A program made the translations under genes and the position numbers. A stretch of DNA of 48,674 nt from Telmatospirillum sp. (GTDB lineage: Bacteria > Pseudomonadota > Alphaproteobacteria > Rhodospirillales > Magnetospirillaceae): the NCBI GenBank assembly GCA_009712185.1, contig WASQ01000107.1:3308-51981 (forward strand), given 5' to 3'. Every line of letters starts with the position of its first letter. The stretch's first letter is position 1. Of the stretch, positions 12,906-26,112 are shown piece by piece. The notes under the pieces were generated by a model. That model had not been told where the DNA came from. It ran no database searches and saw only the letters and a program-made list of their open reading frames with translations.

Positions 12906-13042
12906 CGAACGCCGCTCGGGCCTGAGGGCCTGTTGGTCAGATCGTTTGTCAACAGGCTCTGAAGTGAGGTCCGGCCGGGCAGAATGGAAAAACAGAAGCG
13001 GCCGGGTCAGGATTTGAGGAGGATGTGTTCAGGGACTCCACG

Positions 13043-14163
<1,121 letters not shown>

Positions 14164-14204
14164 GCTTGAGACCACGCAGGTGGTGGTCGGAACCGATCAC
14201 CACT

Positions 14205-14233
14205 GGCCTCAGGCGGCCCTGAGCCAAGTTTTT
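14205..14233 (+). terminator. Rho-independent terminator after ilvC
   Basis: Stem GGCCTCAGG (14205-14213) with CCTGAGCC (14218-14225), one bulged base, followed by AAG and TTTTT (14229-14233). It lies 42 bp after the ilvC stop. Confidence 0.6.
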
Positions 14234-14382
14234 CCGGAACCCCTGGCTTCGCTTGCATCAGCTCGCGGGCCCTCACCGGGCCAGCCAACCGGCGATGAGT
14301 AACCCTCATCGCCGGCCGGTCTGATCCTATCTTTGCCCCGCCGTGAACGACAGGCCGTCGGGTCGGGTTTCGGGGCCTGTCC

Positions 14383-14607
14383 TCACGAACACCGGTCGAT
14401 GCCATTCTTCCCGTTGTATCTGGCCTCCTGCCGGTTGCGGAAGAACTCCTCCCGGTTCATGACCGGCGCATCAGGATTGCGGCTGCGGCATCGCGCACGA
14501 TAGTTCTCGTAATCCGGTAACCCGATCATCATGCCGGCGCCTTGTGCGATCAGATGCCGCAAGCGGTTGAGGGCGGCAAGGGATGATTCAAAGACGTGGT
14601 GCGTCAT
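14383..14607 (-). CDS. YbdD/YjiX-type small protein
   Basis: 74 residues from the ATG at 14607, chosen because GGAGG lies 6 nt upstream; an in-frame ATG at 14631 lacks this. It carries the family signature: an N-terminal amphipathic helix, then IGLPDYENYRARCRSRNPDAPVM, EEFFRNRQEARY and a terminal Cys. Members usually sit beside cstA-type peptide or pyruvate transporters; none is in this window, so it is orphaned. Function is unknown. It lies at the downstream end of the accessory block but has its own strong RBS and probably its own promoter. Confidence 0.8.
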   Translation of the reverse strand: MTHHVFESSLAALNRLRHLIAQGAGMMIGLPDYENYRARCRSRNPDAPVMNREEFFRNRQEARYNGKNGIDRCS

Positions 14608-14645
14608 GATACCCCTCCAATGGTGTGGCATACGGGTGACTGTTT

Positions 14646-14670
14646 CCTGACCCGGCGAAGCCGCGTCAGG
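14646..14670 (-). terminator. Hairpin after the GMC gene
   Basis: CCTGAC (14646-14651) pairs with GTCAGG (14665-14670), with an inner CGGC-GAA-GCCG stem. It lies immediately beyond the GMC oxidoreductase stop and probably closes the four-gene operon. There is no T-run. Confidence 0.45.
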
Positions 14671-14673
14671 CCT

Positions 14674-16437
14674 TCAGGTGAGCAATCCGGGATTTTTCAA
14701 ATAACGGTTTTTGATGGCGTCGGCCGCCCAGAAAGCGAGAGCGCCGACCGGTCCTGTCGGATTTTTTGAGGAGTTCTGTGGAAATGCCGATGCGCCGGCG
14801 ACAAAGACATTTGATACATCCCATGACTGGAGATAGCGGTTGACCGCGCTGGTGTTGGGGTCCGTTCCGAGTACGGCGCCGCCCGCGTTATGGGTCGTCT
14901 GATATGGCGTGATGCTGTATTTCTCCGGAGCTCCAACCCGGTCGACGCGCTCCGCGCCAATGGCGCGACCGATGCCGACGCAGACGTCGGCCAGGACATC
15001 GGCTTGTCTCTTTTCGTTCGGGTGGAAATCGAAGGTCATGCGCAACAGGGGGCGGCCGAAAGGGTCCCGATAATTGGGATCAAGATCGAGGTAGTTATGG
15101 CGGTAGGCCATGACGCTACCCTGATTATTGACGAACAATGTGCGGTGATAGTGGTCGACGACCTCCCGTTTCCATTTCGTTCCCCAGCGCGGCGTTCCAG
15201 CCGGGACGGGCCGGAATCCGAAAGGACGCCCGCCATAGCTGGGGCAGTAGATATTGCCGCCGCCGATGAATCCTTCTCTCAAATGGTCGAAATTATCGCC
15301 GTTGAAATCATCGATCACCATCTGCAGAGCGCCGGCCCCCATGAAGGGGTTGAGCCATGTGTCTTTCTTCAGGAACACGGTGGCTCCGCTGTTGATCTGG
15401 TATGTGTAATTGCGCCCGACGACGCCCTCGCCTGACTGCGGGTCGTAAGGGCGTCCAATTCCCGACAACAGCATGAGATGCGTATTGCCGAGGGTATAGG
15501 CCGCGAGGATGACCAGTTCCGCCGGCTGTTCGAAGGTGACGCCGCGTGCATTCGCATAGGTCACGCTTTTCGCGCGTTTCCCGGCTTCGTCCAGGTTGAC
15601 CTTCAGGACGCGCGCGCCGGTCCGGATTTCCACATTGGGCTTCGCGGCCAGCAAGGGGACCAGCGTGAAATGCGGACTGGCTTTGGCGTTTGACCAGCAG
15701 CCGAACCGTTCGCAAAACCCACAGTAGTTGCATTGGCCGAAAGCAACTTCATCGGGATTGGTATAGGGTTGTGACGCATTGGCAGAGGGACAGGGAAAGG
15801 CGTGGTAACCCAGTCCTTCCGTGGCCTTCTCGAACAACTCGCCCGCATAACTCTGCGTCAACGGCGGATTGGGATAATCGTTCTGGCGTGTTCCTTCGAA
15901 AATATTGCCGCCTTTGATCTTTACTCCGCGAAGGTTGCCGGCCTTACCGGAAATGCCGCAAAGGCGTTCAAATTTGTCGTAGAAGGGTTCCAGTTCGTCA
16001 TAAGAGATTCCCCAGTCCTGCAAATTCATTTCTGCGGGAATGGCTTTTTTGCCATAGCGAGCGAGGGTGCGCGTCAGGGGCTCATGATCCCAGGGAAGCC
16101 AGCGCCACGTCTGCCCGTTCCAGTGGACTCCGGCACCTCCGACGCCGTCACCAGGCAAGAACGAGCCGAGTTGCCGCATTGGCAGAGCCGTCTGACTGGC
16201 GTTGTTTCTGAAAGACAGAGTGTCTCGGGAGGCATCCTGCATCAGCTCGTGGCGTTGCGCGTAACGAATCTCGTCGTGAATGTTCGGTGCCAGGAAATCC
16301 GGGAAGGTGTCACGCGGATTGCCGCGTTCCAGGACGAGCACGGAGAGCCCGCTATCCGATAATTCCTTGGCGAAAATTCCCCCGGTCCAGCCAAGACCAA
16401 CAATAACGATATCGACGGGTTTAAGGCGCGTGGCCAT
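14674..16437 (-). CDS. GMC-family FAD oxidoreductase with Cys cluster (dehydrogenase large-subunit type)
   Basis: 587 residues. N-terminal FAD-binding VGLGWTGG (13-20; GxGxxG), then the ERG strand end at 37-39. Cys236, Cys239, Cys242 and Cys247 form CNYCGFCERFGC, resembling Fe-S-bearing members of the FAD-dependent glucose/gluconate dehydrogenase group. The C-terminal substrate domain ends with the GMC active-site pair His516 (THNAGG) and Asn559. No signal peptide: in related complexes the flavoprotein is exported with the Tat-bearing small subunit, which is encoded 17 bp upstream. A cytochrome c subunit, the usual third partner, is absent. Substrate cannot be told from sequence; sugar acids or other polyols are possible. 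GGAG lies 6 nt before the ATG. Confidence 0.88.
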   Translation of the reverse strand: MATRLKPVDIVIVGLGWTGGIFAKELSDSGLSVLVLERGNPRDTFPDFLAPNIHDEIRYAQRHELMQDASRDTLSFRNNASQTALPMRQLGSFLPGDGVGGAGVHWNGQTWRWLPWDHEPLTRTLARYGKKAIPAEMNLQDWGISYDELEPFYDKFERLCGISGKAGNLRGVKIKGGNIFEGTRQNDYPNPPLTQSYAGELFEKATEGLGYHAFPCPSANASQPYTNPDEVAFGQCNYCGFCERFGCWSNAKASPHFTLVPLLAAKPNVEIRTGARVLKVNLDEAGKRAKSVTYANARGVTFEQPAELVILAAYTLGNTHLMLLSGIGRPYDPQSGEGVVGRNYTYQINSGATVFLKKDTWLNPFMGAGALQMVIDDFNGDNFDHLREGFIGGGNIYCPSYGGRPFGFRPVPAGTPRWGTKWKREVVDHYHRTLFVNNQGSVMAYRHNYLDLDPNYRDPFGRPLLRMTFDFHPNEKRQADVLADVCVGIGRAIGAERVDRVGAPEKYSITPYQTTHNAGGAVLGTDPNTSAVNRYLQSWDVSNVFVAGASAFPQNSSKNPTGPVGALAFWAADAIKNRYLKNPGLLT

Positions 16438-16454
16438 ATTTTTCTCCGAACTAT

Positions 16455-17207
16455 CTAGGATAAGTCTTGGATGCTTTTTGGATTTGTGAAGTATTTTTTG
16501 TTGCGATATGTTTCTATAGTTTCAATGTAGCCGTCTCCGACACCCGGAAAACCAATCATTTCCCAAGTTGCCTTGTCGCGATTACCCCCGTGAATAGGAT
16601 CGCCGAAGTAGCCTTCCATCGTGTTTTGCAGCAGCAGTTGGAAAAAGACCCCTGCGGGGACCTGAGCAAACTCGACCTTTCCGCTTTCGATCTCTTCCAG
16701 GACCAGTCGTCTATTTGAGGGGGAGAGCTGGTGGAAATGGTTGCCGCCATAAGATTTGGCGCACCAGTTGTTGAGATCGGCGATGCCCAGCCGGTAAAGT
16801 TCGGCCGGTGTCAGTGATAGTTGATATCCCTGTTCGGGGGTGCCTTCCGCGAACGGTCCCTGGAGATACATCCGTGCGCCGCGGCCGAACGCCCCCGCCA
16901 TTGCGCGATCGATAAAGGTCGGTATGCCGACCTCGACGCCGCCCGGTCCGACATCGTCTTTCGGGATCAGGGTGTCTACCAGCGCCACGACGGCATCCGC
17001 CTCGACGCTGTTAAAAAAAAGCGGACTTTGAAACGGGGTGACACGCTGGGCGGCGCCGTGGCCTTGGCCGTCCGATTCCTGTTTTCCGTGGTCCCGCTTT
17101 ATCGCTTCATCGGCCTCAGCCCGGGGGGGCAGGGCTGCGGCCACTCCCGCGGCGGCTCCCATGGCTTTGAGAAAATCACGTCTGGGTAAACCGGCTTTCC
17201 TGGACAT
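16455..17207 (-). CDS. Tat-exported gluconate 2-dehydrogenase subunit 3-like protein
   Basis: 250 residues. A twin-arginine signal (RRDFLKAMG, Arg9-Arg10) and Ala-rich hydrophobic stretch lead to a region starting about residue 55 (TPFQSPLFFNSVEADAVVALVDTLIPKDDVGPGG) typical of gluconate_2-dh3 proteins, which act as small subunit and export chaperone of GMC dehydrogenases. The sequence between the signal and this domain (DEAIKRDHGKQESDGQGHG) is a polar spacer. The stop lies 17 bp before the GMC start, supporting a two-subunit periplasmic dehydrogenase. RBS AAGGGAAG precedes the ATG. Confidence 0.87.
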   Translation of the reverse strand: MSRKAGLPRRDFLKAMGAAAGVAAALPPRAEADEAIKRDHGKQESDGQGHGAAQRVTPFQSPLFFNSVEADAVVALVDTLIPKDDVGPGGVEVGIPTFIDRAMAGAFGRGARMYLQGPFAEGTPEQGYQLSLTPAELYRLGIADLNNWCAKSYGGNHFHQLSPSNRRLVLEEIESGKVEFAQVPAGVFFQLLLQNTMEGYFGDPIHGGNRDKATWEMIGFPGVGDGYIETIETYRNKKYFTNPKSIQDLS

Positions 17208-17240
17208 GCTGTCTTCCCTTCGCTCTGGCGGCTTCCTTGT

Positions 17241-18035
17241 TCAATGCAGCGGATGGGCGTCGTTGGCCGATAGGGACCGCAACATCCGGCGTGCGAAGTA
17301 GTGAAAAGTCGCCTGCGACCGTTTTTCTTGCAGAATCCAGTCGTGCGCGTCTCGGGCAAGAGGTTGCTCCAGGTCACGGATCACGCCGGCCGCTTCGGCC
17401 AGGAGCTGTAGTTCGGCCGCCCTTTCGCACTGCAAAGCGACCACACAGGCTTCCTCGACCGACCGGCAGGCCACCACCAAGCCATGATGGGCCAGCAAGG
17501 CTGCCCTTTTTGTTCCCAGTGTCGCGGAAATGAGTTTTCCCTCCTCATTTCCCACCGGAACGCCGGGCCATTTCTGAAGAAAGCCGATATCATCGTAGAG
17601 AACACAAGTATCCATATGGGAAATATTCAGGGGTTTCTCCAGCATTGATAGAGCGGAGACGTGTAATGGATGCGTGTGTATTATGCAGTTGACATCCGGA
17701 TGTTCTCTGTAGATCCATGTGTGGAAACGATTGGCAGGATTGGCCATGCCGTTTCCCTCGATAACATTCAAATGTTCGTCGACAATCAGAAGATTGGTTG
17801 CCGTGACCTCGTCGAATCCGAGTCCAAGTTGCTGCGTGTAGAAGCGTCCGTCCTTCTCCGCACGTCCCGTGATCTGTCCGGCCAACCCCGAATCATGCCC
17901 CTTCTGGAAGAGAATTCGGCAGGCGAGGGAAAGTTTTTCGCGCATCGACCACGCCGGCATTGAAAGATGTTCTTTCATCCGTTGTTTGGCGATTTCGACG
18001 AGTTGTGGCTTGTCCATTGACATTGTGTCGGTCAT
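17241..18035 (-). CDS. Class II aldolase/adducin-domain protein
   Basis: 264 residues, no signal peptide. Zn ligands of the fold are visible: His120 and His122 in IIHTHP, and His184 in LAHHG. The position of the catalytic Glu in fuculose-phosphate aldolase (SSE before the helix with the FH/LH motif) reads PANRFH here, with Asn102, so normal retro-aldol chemistry is doubtful. Related adducin-like enzymes perform decarboxylation, epimerisation or unknown steps. GAGGT lies 5 nt from the ATG. Second gene of the operon, 33 bp before the Tat protein. A cytoplasmic enzyme beside an exported dehydrogenase suggests that the pathway crosses the membrane. Confidence 0.85.
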   Translation of the reverse strand: MTDTMSMDKPQLVEIAKQRMKEHLSMPAWSMREKLSLACRILFQKGHDSGLAGQITGRAEKDGRFYTQQLGLGFDEVTATNLLIVDEHLNVIEGNGMANPANRFHTWIYREHPDVNCIIHTHPLHVSALSMLEKPLNISHMDTCVLYDDIGFLQKWPGVPVGNEEGKLISATLGTKRAALLAHHGLVVACRSVEEACVVALQCERAAELQLLAEAAGVIRDLEQPLARDAHDWILQEKRSQATFHYFARRMLRSLSANDAHPLH

Positions 18036-18101
18036 GTCTACCTCGTCTGGCGATAGGAATCCGTTTTGATAGCAATTTTTGCTGCCCTGAAAATCGTGGT
18101 G

Positions 18102-18168
18102 CCTCCAGGACCGGCCCGGCCGGCTCCCGGTGTCGGGCGGACCTGGAGGAACTCTGGCGCCGACACCG
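18102..18168 (-). promoter_or_regulatory. Overlapping alternative stems inside the accessory operon
   Basis: Arm pair A: CCTCCAGG (18102-18109) with CCTGGAGG (18142-18149). Arm pair B: CGGTGTCGG (18128-18136) with CCGACACCG (18160-18168). The left arm of B lies in the loop of A and its right arm outside, so the two either exclude each other or form a pseudoknot. The element lies in the 137-bp gap after the fusion gene and before the aldolase gene. Confidence 0.5.
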
Positions 18169-18172
18169 CGGA

Positions 18173-20896
18173 TTAAAGGGCTATGCCGGTCCTGTCGGGC
18201 GACCTGCCGACGGATGTCTCGGATTTTCGCGACGACGCTTCAATCGAGCTCAGGAATGCCCGGCGGGCCATGACGAGTTCTCTTCCTGCGACGACCATAT
18301 TTTCGATTTCGTCAGGTGTTTCCGTCGCAAGGGTGGCCATGATGTCACGTATCGTTTCTGCATGGCTGTCGTCGCAATCGATGTGAAGCGTGAAGAATTC
18401 CAGATGTTCTTCCGGAACGCCGCATTGAATAAAGCCGTCCATGATGTCCGAATAAAACCCGGGGACCAGAGCTTCAGCCCCGAGGCAAAGGGCGCCTAGT
18501 CCGAAAGACGGATTTGTGTTCCGGCAGTAACGGAACATTGCGTTCGTCAGGATGGACGTTCCCCTGAATGGGGTCTGATGTTCCAGTGTGAGGGAAAAAC
18601 GGTTCAACATCTCCCGATAGATGATGTGATGGGGACGGGAATTGTTTCCGTGCAGACCTAATTCCTCGAAAAGATTTTGTGCGAGGTCCAATATATGTTT
18701 GTTACTGCTCAAGTTTGACATTAACGCGCAGAGATAACGCGTGAAATATGCGCTGTAGAGTCCTTGCTGGACGAGGAACGCTTTCAATTCGTCAAGATGG
18801 ACTTGTCCTTCCCGGCAGCGTCGCAGGAAATTGTGCGACCGGAGCTCGTCAATGAGCGCGGTTTTTTCATGTTCCAGTCGTCGCACATGCAACTCCATTG
18901 CGGCCCGTCTGTCCTGAGGGAGGGCGGACACGGTCGCGTTGGAGGCGCCGGTCTCCGCACCGCTAAAAGGACTGCTGGCAGCGAACAACGTAAAGATCAT
19001 GGTTTCCGGGCTGGTGGTGACATAATTCAAACCGGCCGGCGCCGCATGAAGGGAGCACCATTTTACGGCCTCCCAGCTGTAGGAAAGCTCCCCGGCCAGC
19101 CCCCATAGATAGTCCCGGCCGTTCTCTCTGCCGATCTGCCGGCAGCGCTGCAATGCGTCGACGATGGCTTTGCCGACGATTGGGTGAACCTCCATGAAGG
19201 GGCTGGCGCTCAGGATTTTTTTTTCGACATAGCCGGGGATAATTGTTCTCGGGGAGTCGCCTCTGTTCATATTGAGGCAGGCAGACGTGAAGTCGTTGGT
19301 GCCGATCAGTCCACCGTTCAGATCAGCCTGTCGCCCCTTTTGGGAAAAAATCCGTTCGAGGTCGATATAGGCGCCGGCGGTTTCAAGCATGGACGACACG
19401 CCTTTCACCACGTCGGCAAGATCTTCACCGAGAATTTCGGGGGCTACCCGGTCGAAGATCTGGAAAAAACGCTCCACTTCTTCGGGCAGGGTCAATGTGG
19501 CGAGGAGTATTCTCAGTTTGAGGGGGACGCCCGCATCGATGGTTCTCCGGGCCGCTGTCAGCAAGGCTGTGATCCAGGATTCCGCCAGTTCCTCCCGGAG
19601 GCAGAACAGTCGTATGCCGCGGCACCCATGATAAACCTCCCGTTCCCCGCAGATGACCCGAAATGCGCGTTGAACGCGTTCCGTGTCAAAACCGTGGCGT
19701 TCCGAAAAGGCGTGGAAATCGAAGTCGTCGGGAAGAAATTTGCTGAAGGGCATGCACAGAATGCGCGCGACGCACACTTGTCCCGTTCCGGCCGAAAAGA
19801 TTTGATAAAGGGCTTCGGAATGGATGCGGACATAGTCCGCGCGAATCTGCTCGTACCGGTCTTTGTCGCAAATCCCCGGTCCCAGTAACAGTGCCCTCAG
19901 GAGGTCGATCGCGTCGCCGTCGATCCACATCCTTTCATCGCGCAACAGTCCAACCCCCAGGTGTCGTTCATCGGTATCGACGGTGAGCCCCCCATTTTCG
20001 ATTCGGAAGTCCGAAGCCACCAAACGCGCCCAGATGACGCATTCAGGGTCATGAACGTTCACGAATATCTTGAGAGGGGAGACCTTCCGGGCGAGTTCTT
20101 TGACTTTCTGAAATCCGACAAAAAGATCCGACTTTATAATTTTTTCGATTTCCTCCCGATGAGCCGCATAGAGTGGCGTCCGGGAGAGGCTTTTCCATGC
20201 GTCGCCTGCCCCGTACTGTTCCTTGGCGGCCAGATAGCATTGGATCAGCAAGTCATACAGATGCGGGATGACCGGCAGAACCCGTTCACGTTTTCCCTGA
20301 TGGAGCGTTCCGCCAGTGCCACTCATGGAAATGATGTCGCCCTCGGAAAGGATGGTCTTGCCTCCAGGGGACGTGATGCTGCGGTGATGATCCAGATGAA
20401 CCGATAGACGTTCGCCGTCGTCGTTTTCGAGATCGATAAGGCGCGGTTCGTCGGGGCCGTCCAAGAACTCGATCGGAAGCCCGATGATGGTCGGGACCCC
20501 TTCCTGTACGGCCTGGACAGGAGAAAAAGTGGTCTTTCCGTGATTGCACGTAATAAATCCATCGGCGTGTTTTATGTGTATGAAATCATCGATATTCCCT
20601 TCGGAGATGCAGTATATATATTTGATTTTATTTGAGCTTATTGCGTTAAATTTTATTATTTCTTCGGCTAGTTCGCGACTTAGTACGAGAACGCCAGTAA
20701 CATCTCCAGACAGAATTCCTTGTCCGGTACAAATAGTGTCGGTGCTCTGGGCGGCTTTTGTGAACGTTGGATGGAGGCATGCGGTGAGATTTTGCGGGGA
20801 AATTCGTGAGAGCGCTGCGCGGGCAGAAAATTCGCCCCGGCCGACGTGTGTCAGTAGGGAGGGTAGATCGTCATCCTGTCTGATGTTCAAAGTCAT
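18173..20896 (-). CDS. Fusion: degenerate PPDK-like PEP-utilising module plus haem-oxygenase-like diiron oxidase domain
   Basis: 907 residues. Residues about 55-205 match the swivelling phosphohistidine domain of pyruvate phosphate dikinase, ending EGDIISMSGTGG; the histidine loop reads HGKTTFSPVQAVQEG, with Phe124 at the phospho-His position. About 255-640 match the PEP/pyruvate TIM barrel: GLLRDERMW (Arg319), ARILCMPFSKFLP (Arg378), HGCRGIRL, IGTNDFTS (532-535). The catalytic Cys loop GICGEHG reads GLAGELS, with Ala601. The ATP-grasp domain is missing. About 675-885 is a haem-oxygenase-like metal-oxidase domain: NLFEELG (Glu744/745), His756/757, Glu808, and His838-x3-Asp842-x2-His845. So the PEP half probably binds but does not dikinate, while the C-terminal oxidase looks intact. 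First gene of the operon; AAGGAG lies 9 nt before the ATG. Confidence 0.82.
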   Translation of the reverse strand: MTLNIRQDDDLPSLLTHVGRGEFSARAALSRISPQNLTACLHPTFTKAAQSTDTICTGQGILSGDVTGVLVLSRELAEEIIKFNAISSNKIKYIYCISEGNIDDFIHIKHADGFITCNHGKTTFSPVQAVQEGVPTIIGLPIEFLDGPDEPRLIDLENDDGERLSVHLDHHRSITSPGGKTILSEGDIISMSGTGGTLHQGKRERVLPVIPHLYDLLIQCYLAAKEQYGAGDAWKSLSRTPLYAAHREEIEKIIKSDLFVGFQKVKELARKVSPLKIFVNVHDPECVIWARLVASDFRIENGGLTVDTDERHLGVGLLRDERMWIDGDAIDLLRALLLGPGICDKDRYEQIRADYVRIHSEALYQIFSAGTGQVCVARILCMPFSKFLPDDFDFHAFSERHGFDTERVQRAFRVICGEREVYHGCRGIRLFCLREELAESWITALLTAARRTIDAGVPLKLRILLATLTLPEEVERFFQIFDRVAPEILGEDLADVVKGVSSMLETAGAYIDLERIFSQKGRQADLNGGLIGTNDFTSACLNMNRGDSPRTIIPGYVEKKILSASPFMEVHPIVGKAIVDALQRCRQIGRENGRDYLWGLAGELSYSWEAVKWCSLHAAPAGLNYVTTSPETMIFTLFAASSPFSGAETGASNATVSALPQDRRAAMELHVRRLEHEKTALIDELRSHNFLRRCREGQVHLDELKAFLVQQGLYSAYFTRYLCALMSNLSSNKHILDLAQNLFEELGLHGNNSRPHHIIYREMLNRFSLTLEHQTPFRGTSILTNAMFRYCRNTNPSFGLGALCLGAEALVPGFYSDIMDGFIQCGVPEEHLEFFTLHIDCDDSHAETIRDIMATLATETPDEIENMVVAGRELVMARRAFLSSIEASSRKSETSVGRSPDRTGIAL

Positions 20897-20929
20897 TTCG
20901 GCAATCTCCTTTTTGGATGCAAAGCTGCA

Positions 20930-21140
20930 TTCTCATCAGAGGTAATATTATTTGTGCCAAAAACTCGTTGTTTTTATTATTAAAATCAACGGTATAAAAT
21001 ATATTATACAATATCTATATATTAACGTATCAAATTTTATCAATAAATAATTAGTTATATATCTATAAAAATACTATATTTTTTATTGAATTATATTTTA
21101 ATACATATCGCTATATACACGCTTTTATTCATATTTCTGA
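20930..21140. promoter_or_regulatory. AT-rich promoter region of the accessory operon
   Basis: About 200 bp composed almost wholly of A and T in a GC-rich chromosome, with runs such as TATATATTAA and TATATATCTATAAAAATA. An inverted repeat GTTGTTTTTA-TTAT-TAAAATCAAC (20967-20990, one mismatch) lies about 70 bp upstream of the fusion gene's start. It contains many -10-like hexamers, so no single promoter can be picked. Such DNA suits binding by H-NS/MucR-type silencers (inference). Confidence 0.6.
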
Positions 21141-21218
21141 AATGAATAGATTTTGTGACGCGTGTTCCCGCGGAACGGCCGCAACGATCCGTTTGGGGAC
21201 GACTGAGCTGCGCTCAGA

Positions 21219-22190
21219 TCACTGGCCGGATGACCGGCCGTTCGGCGGCGTCAGAATGTGCCGCGGTTTTTGGATGCGCTGCCGCGCCCCGAAGGCCACC
21301 AATCCGGTGATGACCGCGCCGAAAGCCAGGGTCTGCGCGTCGATATGTTCGCCGAGCAGGGCGGACGAGGCCAGAAGGGTCAGGAACAGTTGCAGAAACT
21401 GCGTCTGGCTGACACGGGCAATGCCGCCGAGCGCCAGGCCCCGGTACCATGCGAACATCCCGGCAAGTTGACTGACCAGCGTCACATAGGCGAACCCGGC
21501 CCAGGCCTGGAGCGGGATATGACCGGAGGCCGGCCAGGTGATGAAGACGGCGGCGGCGGCGAGCGGCGGCAGCGCCAGTACGAGGGCCCAGCAAATGACC
21601 TGCCATCCGCCAAGCCGTCCGGCGACGGCTCCCCCTTGCGCATAGCCCACGCTTCCGGCGACGACGGCCCCGATCAGCGAAAGATCGCCCCACATCAGCC
21701 GTCCTGCCCCGTGCATCAGCGCGAAACCGATGACCAATCCGGCGCCCAGGCTGCTGGTGCCCCAAAATGCCGGCGCGGGGCGCTCTCCGGCGAACACGCA
21801 TCCCGCGGCGGCCGTCGTCAGCGGCAGAAGACCGATCACGATGGCGCCATGGGATGCCGGCACGCTTACCATGGCGATCGAAATGAACAGCGGAAAGCCG
21901 ATTACCACCCCGGCCGACACGACGGCCAGCCGTTTCCAGTCGGCAAGGCAGGGACGGGGACTGCGGTTGACAAGCAACAGGAGGCCGGCCAGCATCGCGG
22001 CAATCAGCGCCCTTCCATAGGCGACGAACAGGGGATCGAGCGCCTCGACGGCAAGCCGGGTGGCGGGCAGCGTCAGGCTGAACGACGCCACCCCCAGAAA
22101 TCCCCACAGCAATCCGTGGATCTGGTCCCTGTGGAGGCCTGTTGCGTCCTGTCCGGTCTCATGCGCCGATCCCGCCATCATCGTCCTCAT
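21219..22190 (-). CDS. DMT-family (EamA) transporter
   Basis: 323 residues with about ten hydrophobic segments in two EamA repeats (about 28-155 and 170-305), the pattern of drug/metabolite exporters. Typical features are SFSLTLPATRLAVEALDPLFVAYGRALIAA in repeat 1 and SQLAGMFAWYRGLALG...QFLQLFLTLLASSALLGE in repeat 2. The start overlaps the stop of the PanE-like gene by four bases, so the two are co-translated. Substrate is unknown; coupling to a 2-oxoacid reductase suggests export of a related acid or amino acid (inference). Confidence 0.9.
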   Translation of the reverse strand: MRTMMAGSAHETGQDATGLHRDQIHGLLWGFLGVASFSLTLPATRLAVEALDPLFVAYGRALIAAMLAGLLLLVNRSPRPCLADWKRLAVVSAGVVIGFPLFISIAMVSVPASHGAIVIGLLPLTTAAAGCVFAGERPAPAFWGTSSLGAGLVIGFALMHGAGRLMWGDLSLIGAVVAGSVGYAQGGAVAGRLGGWQVICWALVLALPPLAAAAVFITWPASGHIPLQAWAGFAYVTLVSQLAGMFAWYRGLALGGIARVSQTQFLQLFLTLLASSALLGEHIDAQTLAFGAVITGLVAFGARQRIQKPRHILTPPNGRSSGQ

Positions 22191-23122
22191 CCGCCGCCGG
22201 CGTTGCCGGCTCTACGCAACTCGTAGGCCTGAAGGTGGGTGTAGGCGACCAGGAGCAGCGGCACGGCGATCCCGTGCCTCATGGCACGGGTGACCAGGTC
22301 GCCGAAGACATGCTCCGCCTCTGTGGGGCCGCCGCGCTCGATATCGCGCAGCATGGAGGCCGTTACGGATGAGCCGCGTTCGGTCAATGTGGCCCGGTAC
22401 CGCGTGAGAGCCTGTTCGTCCGGCGGGAAGCCCTCGGCGGTGGCGACGGCCGCGCATTCAGCCAGGAGGGTTTCTGTCAACCCGGCCCCATGGATCGTTC
22501 CGAGGATCGTGCCGACGCTGGCGCGCAAAAGGCACGTCATCCCGGCGAGCGTTGCCAGAAAGACGAACTTGTCCCACATATCCTGCATGATGACGCTGCT
22601 TCGCACGGCGTCCACCCGCGCGCCGGTAAACGCTTCGAGCAGCGCGCCGGTCCAGGGGTCCGCCCCGCCCCCGAGCGCGCCGAAGCGAATGGCGCAATGC
22701 GGCGCGAGGTGGCGGATCGCCCCGCCGGGTTCCAGTGTCACGGCCAGATGCGCGAGGCCGCCCAAAACGCAGGACGCACCGAACTGTTGTTTGAGAATCT
22801 CGATATGGGCGACCCCGTTCAGCAGCGGCAGAATGCCGGTCCTTCCTGTCGCTGCCGGCTTGATCGTGTCGATCACGCCGGCCAGATCGTAGGCCTTGCA
22901 GGACAGGAGGATGAGGTCGAAATCCCCCGTCAAGCGGTCGGCGGTGACAGTTTTGACCGGAACGGAAAGATCGCCGAGCGGGCTGCTGACGACGAGGCCG
23001 TGACGGGCCAATGCCTCCGCACGGGGCCGCCTGACGAGGAACGTCACGTCGGCGTCGGCTTCGATCAGGCGCCCGCCGAAGTAGCCTCCCACCCCACCGG
23101 CGCCGACCACCAGAATGCGCAT
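22187..23122 (-). CDS. 2-dehydropantoate 2-reductase family protein (PanE/ApbA)
   Basis: 311 residues. N-terminal NADP Rossmann motif VVGAGGVGGYFGGRL (5-19), LLSCKAYDL, LLNGVAHIE, and the C-terminal ketopantoate reductase domain (WDKFVFLATLAGMTCLLRASVGTI). Reduces ketopantoate to pantoate in the vitamin B5 pathway, or a related 2-oxoacid; genomes often carry several paralogues with other substrates. GGAGG lies 7 nt before the ATG. It leads a two-gene unit with the DMT transporter and lies 155 bp from an XRE-cupin regulator on the same strand. Confidence 0.88.
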   Translation of the reverse strand: MRILVVGAGGVGGYFGGRLIEADADVTFLVRRPRAEALARHGLVVSSPLGDLSVPVKTVTADRLTGDFDLILLSCKAYDLAGVIDTIKPAATGRTGILPLLNGVAHIEILKQQFGASCVLGGLAHLAVTLEPGGAIRHLAPHCAIRFGALGGGADPWTGALLEAFTGARVDAVRSSVIMQDMWDKFVFLATLAGMTCLLRASVGTILGTIHGAGLTETLLAECAAVATAEGFPPDEQALTRYRATLTERGSSVTASMLRDIERGGPTEAEHVFGDLVTRAMRHGIAVPLLLVAYTHLQAYELRRAGNAGGG

Positions 23123-23277
23123 GGGCGACCTCCCAATTTTCTCATGGAAGAATTATTCTCTTTGTAGAGAATTTGCGGCGCAACTGTCAATTCGGGTGCC
23201 GGTCAGGCGGGCTATGTCTTAAGGCAGGTGGGATCTGAAGGCCGGACAAGTGGAGGGGCAAATGATCCGCTTCGGGC

Positions 23278-23838
23278 TCAGCGCAGGCGTGTGCTGTCGA
23301 TGACGATCAGATACTCGCAAGGACCGTCGGTCAGATTCTCGAACGTATGGTCGAGATCGCCACGATAGAAAAGCAGATGCCCCTCTTCCAACTCATAAGA
23401 GGCTCCGGCCAATGTTACCTTGAGACGGCCCCGCAACATATAAAGATGCTCCTCGACACCTTCGCGATGCGCGGGGAACGGGCCGGTTTTCGCGAGCGGC
23501 GGAAGAGTGTTGACGACGAGATCGACGCCCCGCCCGTGGTAGAGCGGCGACAATGACCGGCGTTCGAAACCGGAGGACTCTTCGCGGAAAACCGGCTGCT
23601 GTTCGCGGCGCACATGCAGCACCGGTTGCTTTCCCGGTCCGCCGACCAGTTGCGAGATGCTGAGGTCAAGCGCCTCCGCCAGTTTGCCCAGCACCGCGGC
23701 GGTCGCGGTGACTTCCCCCCGCTCGATCTTGGAAATAGCGGCCCTGCTGACCCCGCTCGTCGCCGACAACTGCTCCAGGGTGAGGCCGCGGTCGAGCCGG
23801 CGGCTATGGACCATCTTACCGATTTCGTTTGGAGGCAT
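23278..23838 (-). CDS. XRE-family regulator with cupin sensor domain
   Basis: 186 residues: an N-terminal helix-turn-helix (about 7-62; LTLEQLSATSGVSRAAISKIERGEV) and a C-terminal cupin (about 105-184; AHREGVEEHLYMLRGRLKVTLAGASYELEEGHLLFYRGDLDHTFENL). This class usually senses a small metabolite through the cupin and controls adjacent genes. It lies upstream of panE-like and the DMT transporter on the same strand and likely regulates them. No strong RBS before 23838; an ATG at 23814 with GGTAAG is an alternative start. Confidence 0.9.
   Translation of the reverse strand: MPPNEIGKMVHSRRLDRGLTLEQLSATSGVSRAAISKIERGEVTATAAVLGKLAEALDLSISQLVGGPGKQPVLHVRREQQPVFREESSGFERRSLSPLYHGRGVDLVVNTLPPLAKTGPFPAHREGVEEHLYMLRGRLKVTLAGASYELEEGHLLFYRGDLDHTFENLTDGPCEYLIVIDSTRLR

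Positions 23839-26112
<2,274 letters not shown>

Follow-up and report, generated by a model that had tools for sequence, protein, structure and literature searches.

Phosphotransfer by pyruvate phosphate dikinase (PPDK) requires a phosphorylated histidine and a catalytic cysteine. For the heme-oxygenase-like diiron oxidases (HDOs), the main text of PMC13108848 describes a 3H/3C ligand motif, ties known members mostly to fatty- and amino-acid substrates, and counts about a dozen functionally validated enzymes among >10,000 sequences. In a window of 48,674 nucleotides (the whole stretch of DNA that was analyzed, from Telmatospirillum sp. contig WASQ01000107.1), a single gene encodes a protein, P0001, in which a PPDK-like half is followed by an HDO-like domain. 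A first-pass annotation made from the letters alone knew of no described enzyme with such an architecture. Our literature searches, judged mostly without full texts, also brought up no description, and the terms fused, fusion, aldolase, and phosphoenolpyruvate are absent from the main texts of PMC13108848 and PMC13185094. The fusion is built from two known superfamilies; its most interesting part is the PPDK-derived family, for which no description was found.

Architecture of P0001

The gene is a single frame of 907 codons with 0 internal stops, and the fusion of a PPDK-like half with an HDO domain is real in this assembly. In the Pfam search, PF14518 matched residues 706-870 (E 6.9e-22; 78.5 bits, above the gathering score of 28.9) and PF02896 matched residues 311-631 (E 2e-11), while PF00391 reached only E 0.063, under its cut-off. 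The NCBIfam PPDK model TIGR01828 matched with E 8.7e-35, but its 120 bits fall far short of the cut-off (843), so that the equivalog level was not reached; four PPDK frames of other genomes scored about 1300 bits each and passed. PHROGs gave one weak match, to a kinase family (residues 17-140, E 4.7e-4). When solved structures were searched by sequence, the first half matched PPDKs best (5e-14) and the second half matched CT610/CADD and 4-aminobenzoate synthase (1.3e-5), a PqqC-like protein (4e-5), and BesC (0.003). No ATP-grasp domain was found in P0001, in which similarity to PPDK starts at the helical linker. Thus, Pfam, TIGR01828, and alignment bear out the annotated order of a swivel and a phosphoenolpyruvate (PEP)-binding barrel without ATP-grasp, followed by an HDO-like domain. 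The gene lies on the minus strand, a point on which the annotation was silent.

To compare the PPDK-like half residue by residue, we aligned the first 660 residues of P0001 with the four PPDK frames and with stand-alone relatives (see below), omitting one (L061) that is identical to the protein of Tistrella mobilis plasmid pTM3 (652/652 residues). The five family sequences used represent three lineages: the window, Tistrella (three sequences), and Nitratireductor. Phe124 stands in the phospho-His column and Ala601 in the catalytic-Cys column in 5/5 family sequences covering each, and the four PPDKs have His and Cys there (4/4). Both substitutions had been proposed from the sequence, as had the retention of Arg319, Arg378, and the GTND loop (532-535), and these do align to Arg, Arg, and GTND in 4/4 PPDK frames. 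Compared with PPDK (TIGR01828; PDB 1vbh and 1kbl), P0001 has its linker, swivel, and PEP-binding barrel in the same sequence, and its barrel retains Arg319, Arg378, Arg426, Glu505, Asn534, Asp535, and Arg545. Among these, we take Arg319, Arg378, Glu505, Asn534, and Asp535 to be the substrate and Mg ligands of PPDK. P0001 differs from PPDK in the absence of ATP-grasp, in the substitutions of His by Phe124 and, in the barrel, of Cys by Ala601 and Asp by Cys381, and in insertions of 23, 48, and 17 residues, at an identity of about 25%. The 23-residue insertion (residues 142-164) has no counterpart in the four PPDKs, and the 48-residue one (residues 209-256) is present in the stand-alone relatives and missing from the four PPDKs.

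Because the ATP-grasp domain, the phospho-His, and the Cys are all missing, the PPDK reaction is excluded for P0001, given the textbook mechanism. A split PPDK with its ATP-grasp part encoded elsewhere was considered and is unsupported: the only other match to this half in the same genome within the E limit was an 892-amino-acid (aa) open frame on contig C58, which we take to be an ordinary PPDK.

Over residues 1-640, 74 family-invariant columns carry the PPDK residue, and 93 are invariant in the family yet differ from the PPDK-invariant residue, a raw count to which plain divergence may contribute. The latter include Lys121, His282 (whose PPDK counterpart varies with the alignment), Cys381, Lys386, His423, and Cys425. 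An AlphaFold2 model of P0001 built from 12 aligned sequences had a mean pLDDT of 66.6 and a pTM of 0.64, with residues 8-645 mostly at pLDDT 65-95. The best Foldseek match was maize PPDK with Mg-PEP (1vbh, E 3.5e-26), with further PPDKs and PTS enzyme I ranking after it. With strand positions taken from the model, the window and Tistrella proteins were identical at 55/72 positions at the C-ends of the barrel strands, at 133/293 in the rest of the barrel, and at 22/65 at the strand N-ends, where neighboring residues do not count as independent, so that the small P obtained serves as a guide only. Since the strand C-ends are more conserved than the rest of the barrel or the strand N-ends, the conserved barrel mouth in this model argues for a functioning binding or catalytic site.

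The HDO half has a complete 3H/3C set formed by Glu745, His756, Glu808, His838, Asp842, and His845. The first-pass annotation had already listed these ligands and had left Glu744/745 and His756/757 ambiguous; an alignment of 12 HDO-like proteins (window included) settled on Glu745 and His756, and its only seven invariant columns are the six ligands and one Gln. A profile of three close relatives matched the solved structures 1rcw (CT610; 6e-8) and 7twa (1e-7), which we take to be CADD and BesC, respectively. No HDO structure was found among the best 50 Foldseek matches of the P0001 model. Because the models of this half were poor (see below), its assignment to the HDOs is based on sequence. 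P0001 thus resembles the HDO superfamily (CADD, BesC, UndA, and SznF) in the ligand set and in the profile matches to CADD and BesC, but differs in the fusion to a PPDK-like half and in the pairing of its close relatives with a class II aldolase.

Stand-alone relatives of both halves and the junction

A plasmid search with the whole of P0001 returned 29 records; among the PPDK-half matches, T. mobilis pTM3 (519 bits) was far ahead of the next (107 bits). The pTM3 protein is 45.7% identical to residues 10-632 of P0001 and has no oxidase part. In a scan of genome contigs based on two short peptide patterns, the stand-alone gene was found in pTM3 and in a Nitratireductor metagenome-assembled genome (MAG). 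Among 385 genomes of the class (E 1e-40), there were four matches. One is the genome of the window; the other three belong to a single genus, and their proteins share 652, 636, and 620 of 652 residues with the pTM3 protein. On account of this near-identity, the three genomes are taken as Tistrella. Searching 398 genomes of the phylum detected the family in the window's own genome only, 46 genomes around one Tistrella genome gave two matches that had both been counted already, and viral contigs gave none; the genome searches were run at E limits of 1e-40 and 1e-15, at which weaker relatives would escape. An ordinary gene of the taxon was rejected as an explanation, the best P0001 match in the other 60 genomes searched being 64.7 bits. 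The same was asked of the oxidase half in a 297-genome sample of the order (own genome included), where the best match outside the own genome was 31.6 bits.

The stand-alone proteins of pTM3 and the Nitratireductor MAG show the same Phe/Ala substitutions and neighbor families as P0001, but their loci have no oxidase domain, have no such aldolase in the fetched flanks, and contain an extra cytochrome c gene. No oxidase lies beside the stand-alone gene in the flanks from pTM3 or the Nitratireductor MAG, and no HDO relative was detected anywhere on pTM3 at E 1e-5; Tistrella-type genomes do have HDO-like matches, which are weak (about 30 bits) and unlinked. Since the PPDK-like half occurs without an oxidase, the change in its active site is independent of one. 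The earlier interpretation therefore holds for the two recognizable halves, the lost PPDK phospho-His and Cys, the kept oxo-acid site, and the full HDO ligand set, and it is refined by the finding that the PPDK-like half stands alone in Tistrella-type genomes and in the Nitratireductor MAG.

Pairwise dN/dS values among the three Tistrella sequences were 0.139, 0.082, and 0.085. Against two Nitratireductor pieces, Tistrella gave 0.082 and 0.044, at a synonymous divergence of >1. The stand-alone family is thus under purifying selection (dN/dS 0.04-0.14 in 5/5 comparisons). The two pieces were treated separately, as the Nitratireductor gene (L034:9881-11883) is split into two overlapping frames by a frame change that is either genuine or due to misassembly. 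A conserved, selected family that lacks the His and the Cys but has the substrate site suggests that a PPDK scaffold was reused for another purpose.

The oxidase half has relatives of a different kind. In its own genome, a stand-alone oxidase is 54% identical to P0001 residues 667-886, and the gene immediately after it encodes an aldolase 62% identical to the one that comes after the fusion gene. The same oxidase-aldolase pair occurs in Burkholderia stagnalis (56% for the oxidase and 65% for the aldolase), and the clusters around both pairs include ketosynthase-like, AMP-ligase, GNAT, and hydrolase genes. The cluster in the own genome (L009:728-10191, contig C25) contains two ketosynthase-like genes, a GNAT gene, an AMP-ligase gene, and a gene for a 653-aa protein, which has no Pfam match at E 0.1 and is 59% identical to a protein of the B. 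stagnalis cluster. On a 38-kb Pantoea agglomerans plasmid, the aldolase (55%) is encoded together with a protein in which an HDO domain (34%) is joined to a class III aminotransferase. This fusion protein, annotated ectB (L065:34675-36675), is like P0001 in that an HDO domain is joined to another enzyme and an aldolase of the same family is encoded on the plasmid; it differs in that the HDO domain is N-terminal and the partner is an aminotransferase. By analogy, it would fit an amino-acid-derived substrate for this HDO subgroup. The plasmid also carries ATP-grasp, TauD, and amidase genes.

For four of the five oxidase proteins examined for neighbors (window included; weaker HDO matches left out), the aldolase is adjacent or on the same small plasmid. 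Of 72,556 plasmid records, 28 contained such an aldolase (E 1e-30) and 3 an oxidase relative (E 1e-5). All 3 are among the 28, and two of them are Pantoea plasmids of equal length. Three queries found no oxidase relatives in viral contigs. Given that the oxidase half is a member of such a pair, the adjacent aldolase, about which the first-pass annotation says nothing, is likely its partner.

In the alignments, the Tistrella protein ends opposite residue 666 of P0001, and Met1 of the stand-alone oxidases falls on Met667. The simplest history would have a PPDK-like gene arrive immediately in front of an oxidase-aldolase pair, after which the frames merged. By eye, no strong Shine-Dalgarno sequence was seen at the usual distance before Met667; internal initiation at this residue may occur. 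Third-position GC is 0.56 and 0.69 in two parts of the first half and 0.59 in the second half.

Possible function and alternative explanations

We tentatively favor, at a little below even chances, a reading in which P0001 is a two-module enzyme in a cluster, acquired at least partly by horizontal transfer, that modifies and exports a small acid. Its architecture is observed; substrate, reaction, and step order are inferred. The barrel would bind a 2-oxo acid or a PEP-like acid as its Mg complex and would then either hold the acid or perform enolate chemistry that involves no phosphate transfer. Using O2, the diiron domain could oxidize the small acid or amino acid so formed, the adjacent class II aldolase could cleave or decarboxylate the oxidized product, and the PanE-like reductase, the EamA transporter, and the GMC dehydrogenase encoded nearby might complete and export the product. 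A more specific version is unlikely: the PPDK barrel would have been rebuilt as a phosphotransfer-free enolate enzyme that relies on its newly acquired, conserved His and Cys side chains to make or break a C-C bond on a 2-oxo acid and passes its product directly to the fused diiron oxidase and then to the aldolase, as a new bifunctional natural-product enzyme.

Several results weigh against the two-module reading. No second fused copy was found in the plasmid, class, phylum, order-sample, and other genome searches, so that the fusion is known from one assembly only, and dN/dS was measured on the stand-alone genes rather than on the fusion. No such aldolase lies within 19 kb of L060, a more distant oxidase (42%), and 25/28 aldolase-bearing plasmid records are without an HDO relative. 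In the AlphaFold2 model, loops 120-123, 419-426, 521-524, and 544-562 are at pLDDT <50, some of them at the active site (near Phe124, His423, and Cys425), as are residues 742-907 and parts of 646-732; the HDO domain folded alone, without relatives, was helical at a mean pLDDT of 43. For the HDO half, the sequence profiles match CADD and BesC; prediction did not reproduce the fold. Among the neighbors, the PanE-like protein is 50-51% identical to congener proteins encoded elsewhere versus 48% to that of the Nitratireductor cluster, and for the GMC protein it is common to find closer relatives than those encoded in the clusters. As equal or closer relatives lie outside the cluster, membership of these two genes is weaker than their position suggests.

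Could the PPDK-like half be non-catalytic, serving for dimerization or for allosteric sensing of PEP or an oxo acid, with only the HDO half an enzyme? The loss of the phospho-His and the Cys in 5/5 family members, together with the retained PEP/oxo-acid residues, speaks for such an anchor or sensor. We nevertheless consider it rather unlikely, as the half is found without a neighboring oxidase in pTM3 and the Nitratireductor MAG (although Tistrella-type genomes do hold the weak unlinked matches mentioned above), and as His282, Cys381, His423, and Cys425 are family-invariant polar residues foreign to PPDK. The fusion may also be neutral, two adjacent genes of the same pathway having merged into halves with separate reactions and no functional coupling. 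The junction, at which the end of the Tistrella protein meets the start Met of a stand-alone oxidase after a linker of about 26 residues, speaks for this. Coupling alone sets neutral fusion apart from the two-module reading, and no result contradicts it; we regard it as unlikely.

An assembly or sequencing artifact, or a decaying gene, would explain why all searches yielded a single fused copy, confined to this assembly. It had been pointed out that a frameshift could have joined two genes in this assembly only; 907 codons without a stop argue against such a join, although the fused form still comes from one assembly. Against artifact or decay also stand the intact set of all six metal ligands, the similar third-position GC of both halves, and the position of the aldolase immediately downstream, which matches that in both stand-alone pairs. 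This explanation is improbable.

If P0001 works as its sequence suggests, it would represent an unstudied enzyme design, a phosphotransfer-dead PPDK relative joined to an iron oxidase domain of the natural-product type. The HDO fusion and the aldolase pairing give concrete, testable hints on the substrate class, and a defined HDO module with partners is useful because, by the account in the main text of PMC13108848, few HDOs have been validated.

Gene neighborhood and probable horizontal acquisition

Table 1. Positions of P0001, its parts, and neighboring features in the window
Feature	Position	Strand	Remarks or basis
Fusion gene P0001	18173..20896	minus	ATG start, 907 aa; PPDK-type swivel and PEP-binding barrel, then HDO domain
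Helical linker and swivel domain (residues 1-205)	20282..20896	minus	Loop GKTTFSPVQ, Phe124 at phospho-His position
Helical stretch (residues 206-275)	20072..20281	minus	Alignment with four PPDKs, model
PEP-binding barrel (residues 276-640)	18977..20071	minus	Alignment, residue conservation
Linker (residues 641-666)	18899..18976	minus	End aligns with C-terminus of stand-alone Tistrella protein
HDO domain (residues 667-890)	18227..18898	minus	PF14518, ligand columns, Met667 = Met1 of stand-alone relatives
Class II aldolase	17241..18035	minus	NCBIfam PRK07090; shares 62-65% identity with the aldolases next to two stand-alone HDO relatives
Gluconate 2-dehydrogenase subunit 3 family protein	16455..17207	minus	Tat-type signal
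GMC oxidoreductase	14674..16437	minus	Family search
EamA-family transporter	21219..22190	minus	Family search
Ketopantoate-reductase-like (PanE/ApbA) protein	22187..23122	minus	Family search
Helix-turn-helix (HTH)-cupin regulator	23278..23838	minus	Family search
AT-rich upstream region	20897..21218	minus	Putative promoter

In pTM3 and the Nitratireductor MAG, the PPDK-like gene is followed by genes for an HTH-cupin protein (opposite strand), gluconate-2-dehydrogenase subunit 3, GMC, cytochrome c, PanE-like, and EamA proteins. The same neighbor families, minus cytochrome c, lie beside the fusion gene in the window, on one strand throughout and at 36-49% identity. The Nitratireductor block is flanked by conjugation-type genes (relaxase-like and TraG-like, judged by eye from the frames). 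The GMC gene was discarded as a cluster marker, as it is unspecific (120 plasmid records at E 1e-60).

GC content is 0.51-0.58 in the fusion gene (linker excepted) and in the aldolase, subunit 3, and GMC genes, and 0.63-0.67 in EamA, PanE-like, ilvC, and mreB. Three of the four congeners were checked, and all three are without a close aldolase (best 38 bits). The same three have a PanE-like gene elsewhere, 50-51% identical to that of the window, and in the two with long flanks, no cluster genes lie beside it. We infer that at least the low-GC part of the cluster was acquired horizontally. A single origin of the whole block is doubtful: the EamA and PanE-like genes are host-like in GC and the four low-GC genes are not, which disfavors the arrival of all of them in one recent event.

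The GC minimum of the profile over positions 13000-25500 is 0.38, in 20500-21099. Eight promoter-like matches were counted in 14000-24300, versus 4.5 (standard deviation 2.2) in shuffled sequences. The cluster (window positions 14163-25069) sits between ilvC and mreB, where the congener at locus L103 has a leuA-like gene (by eye). A small open reading frame of 82 aa on the minus strand (14383-14631) resembles YbdD/YjiX by eye.

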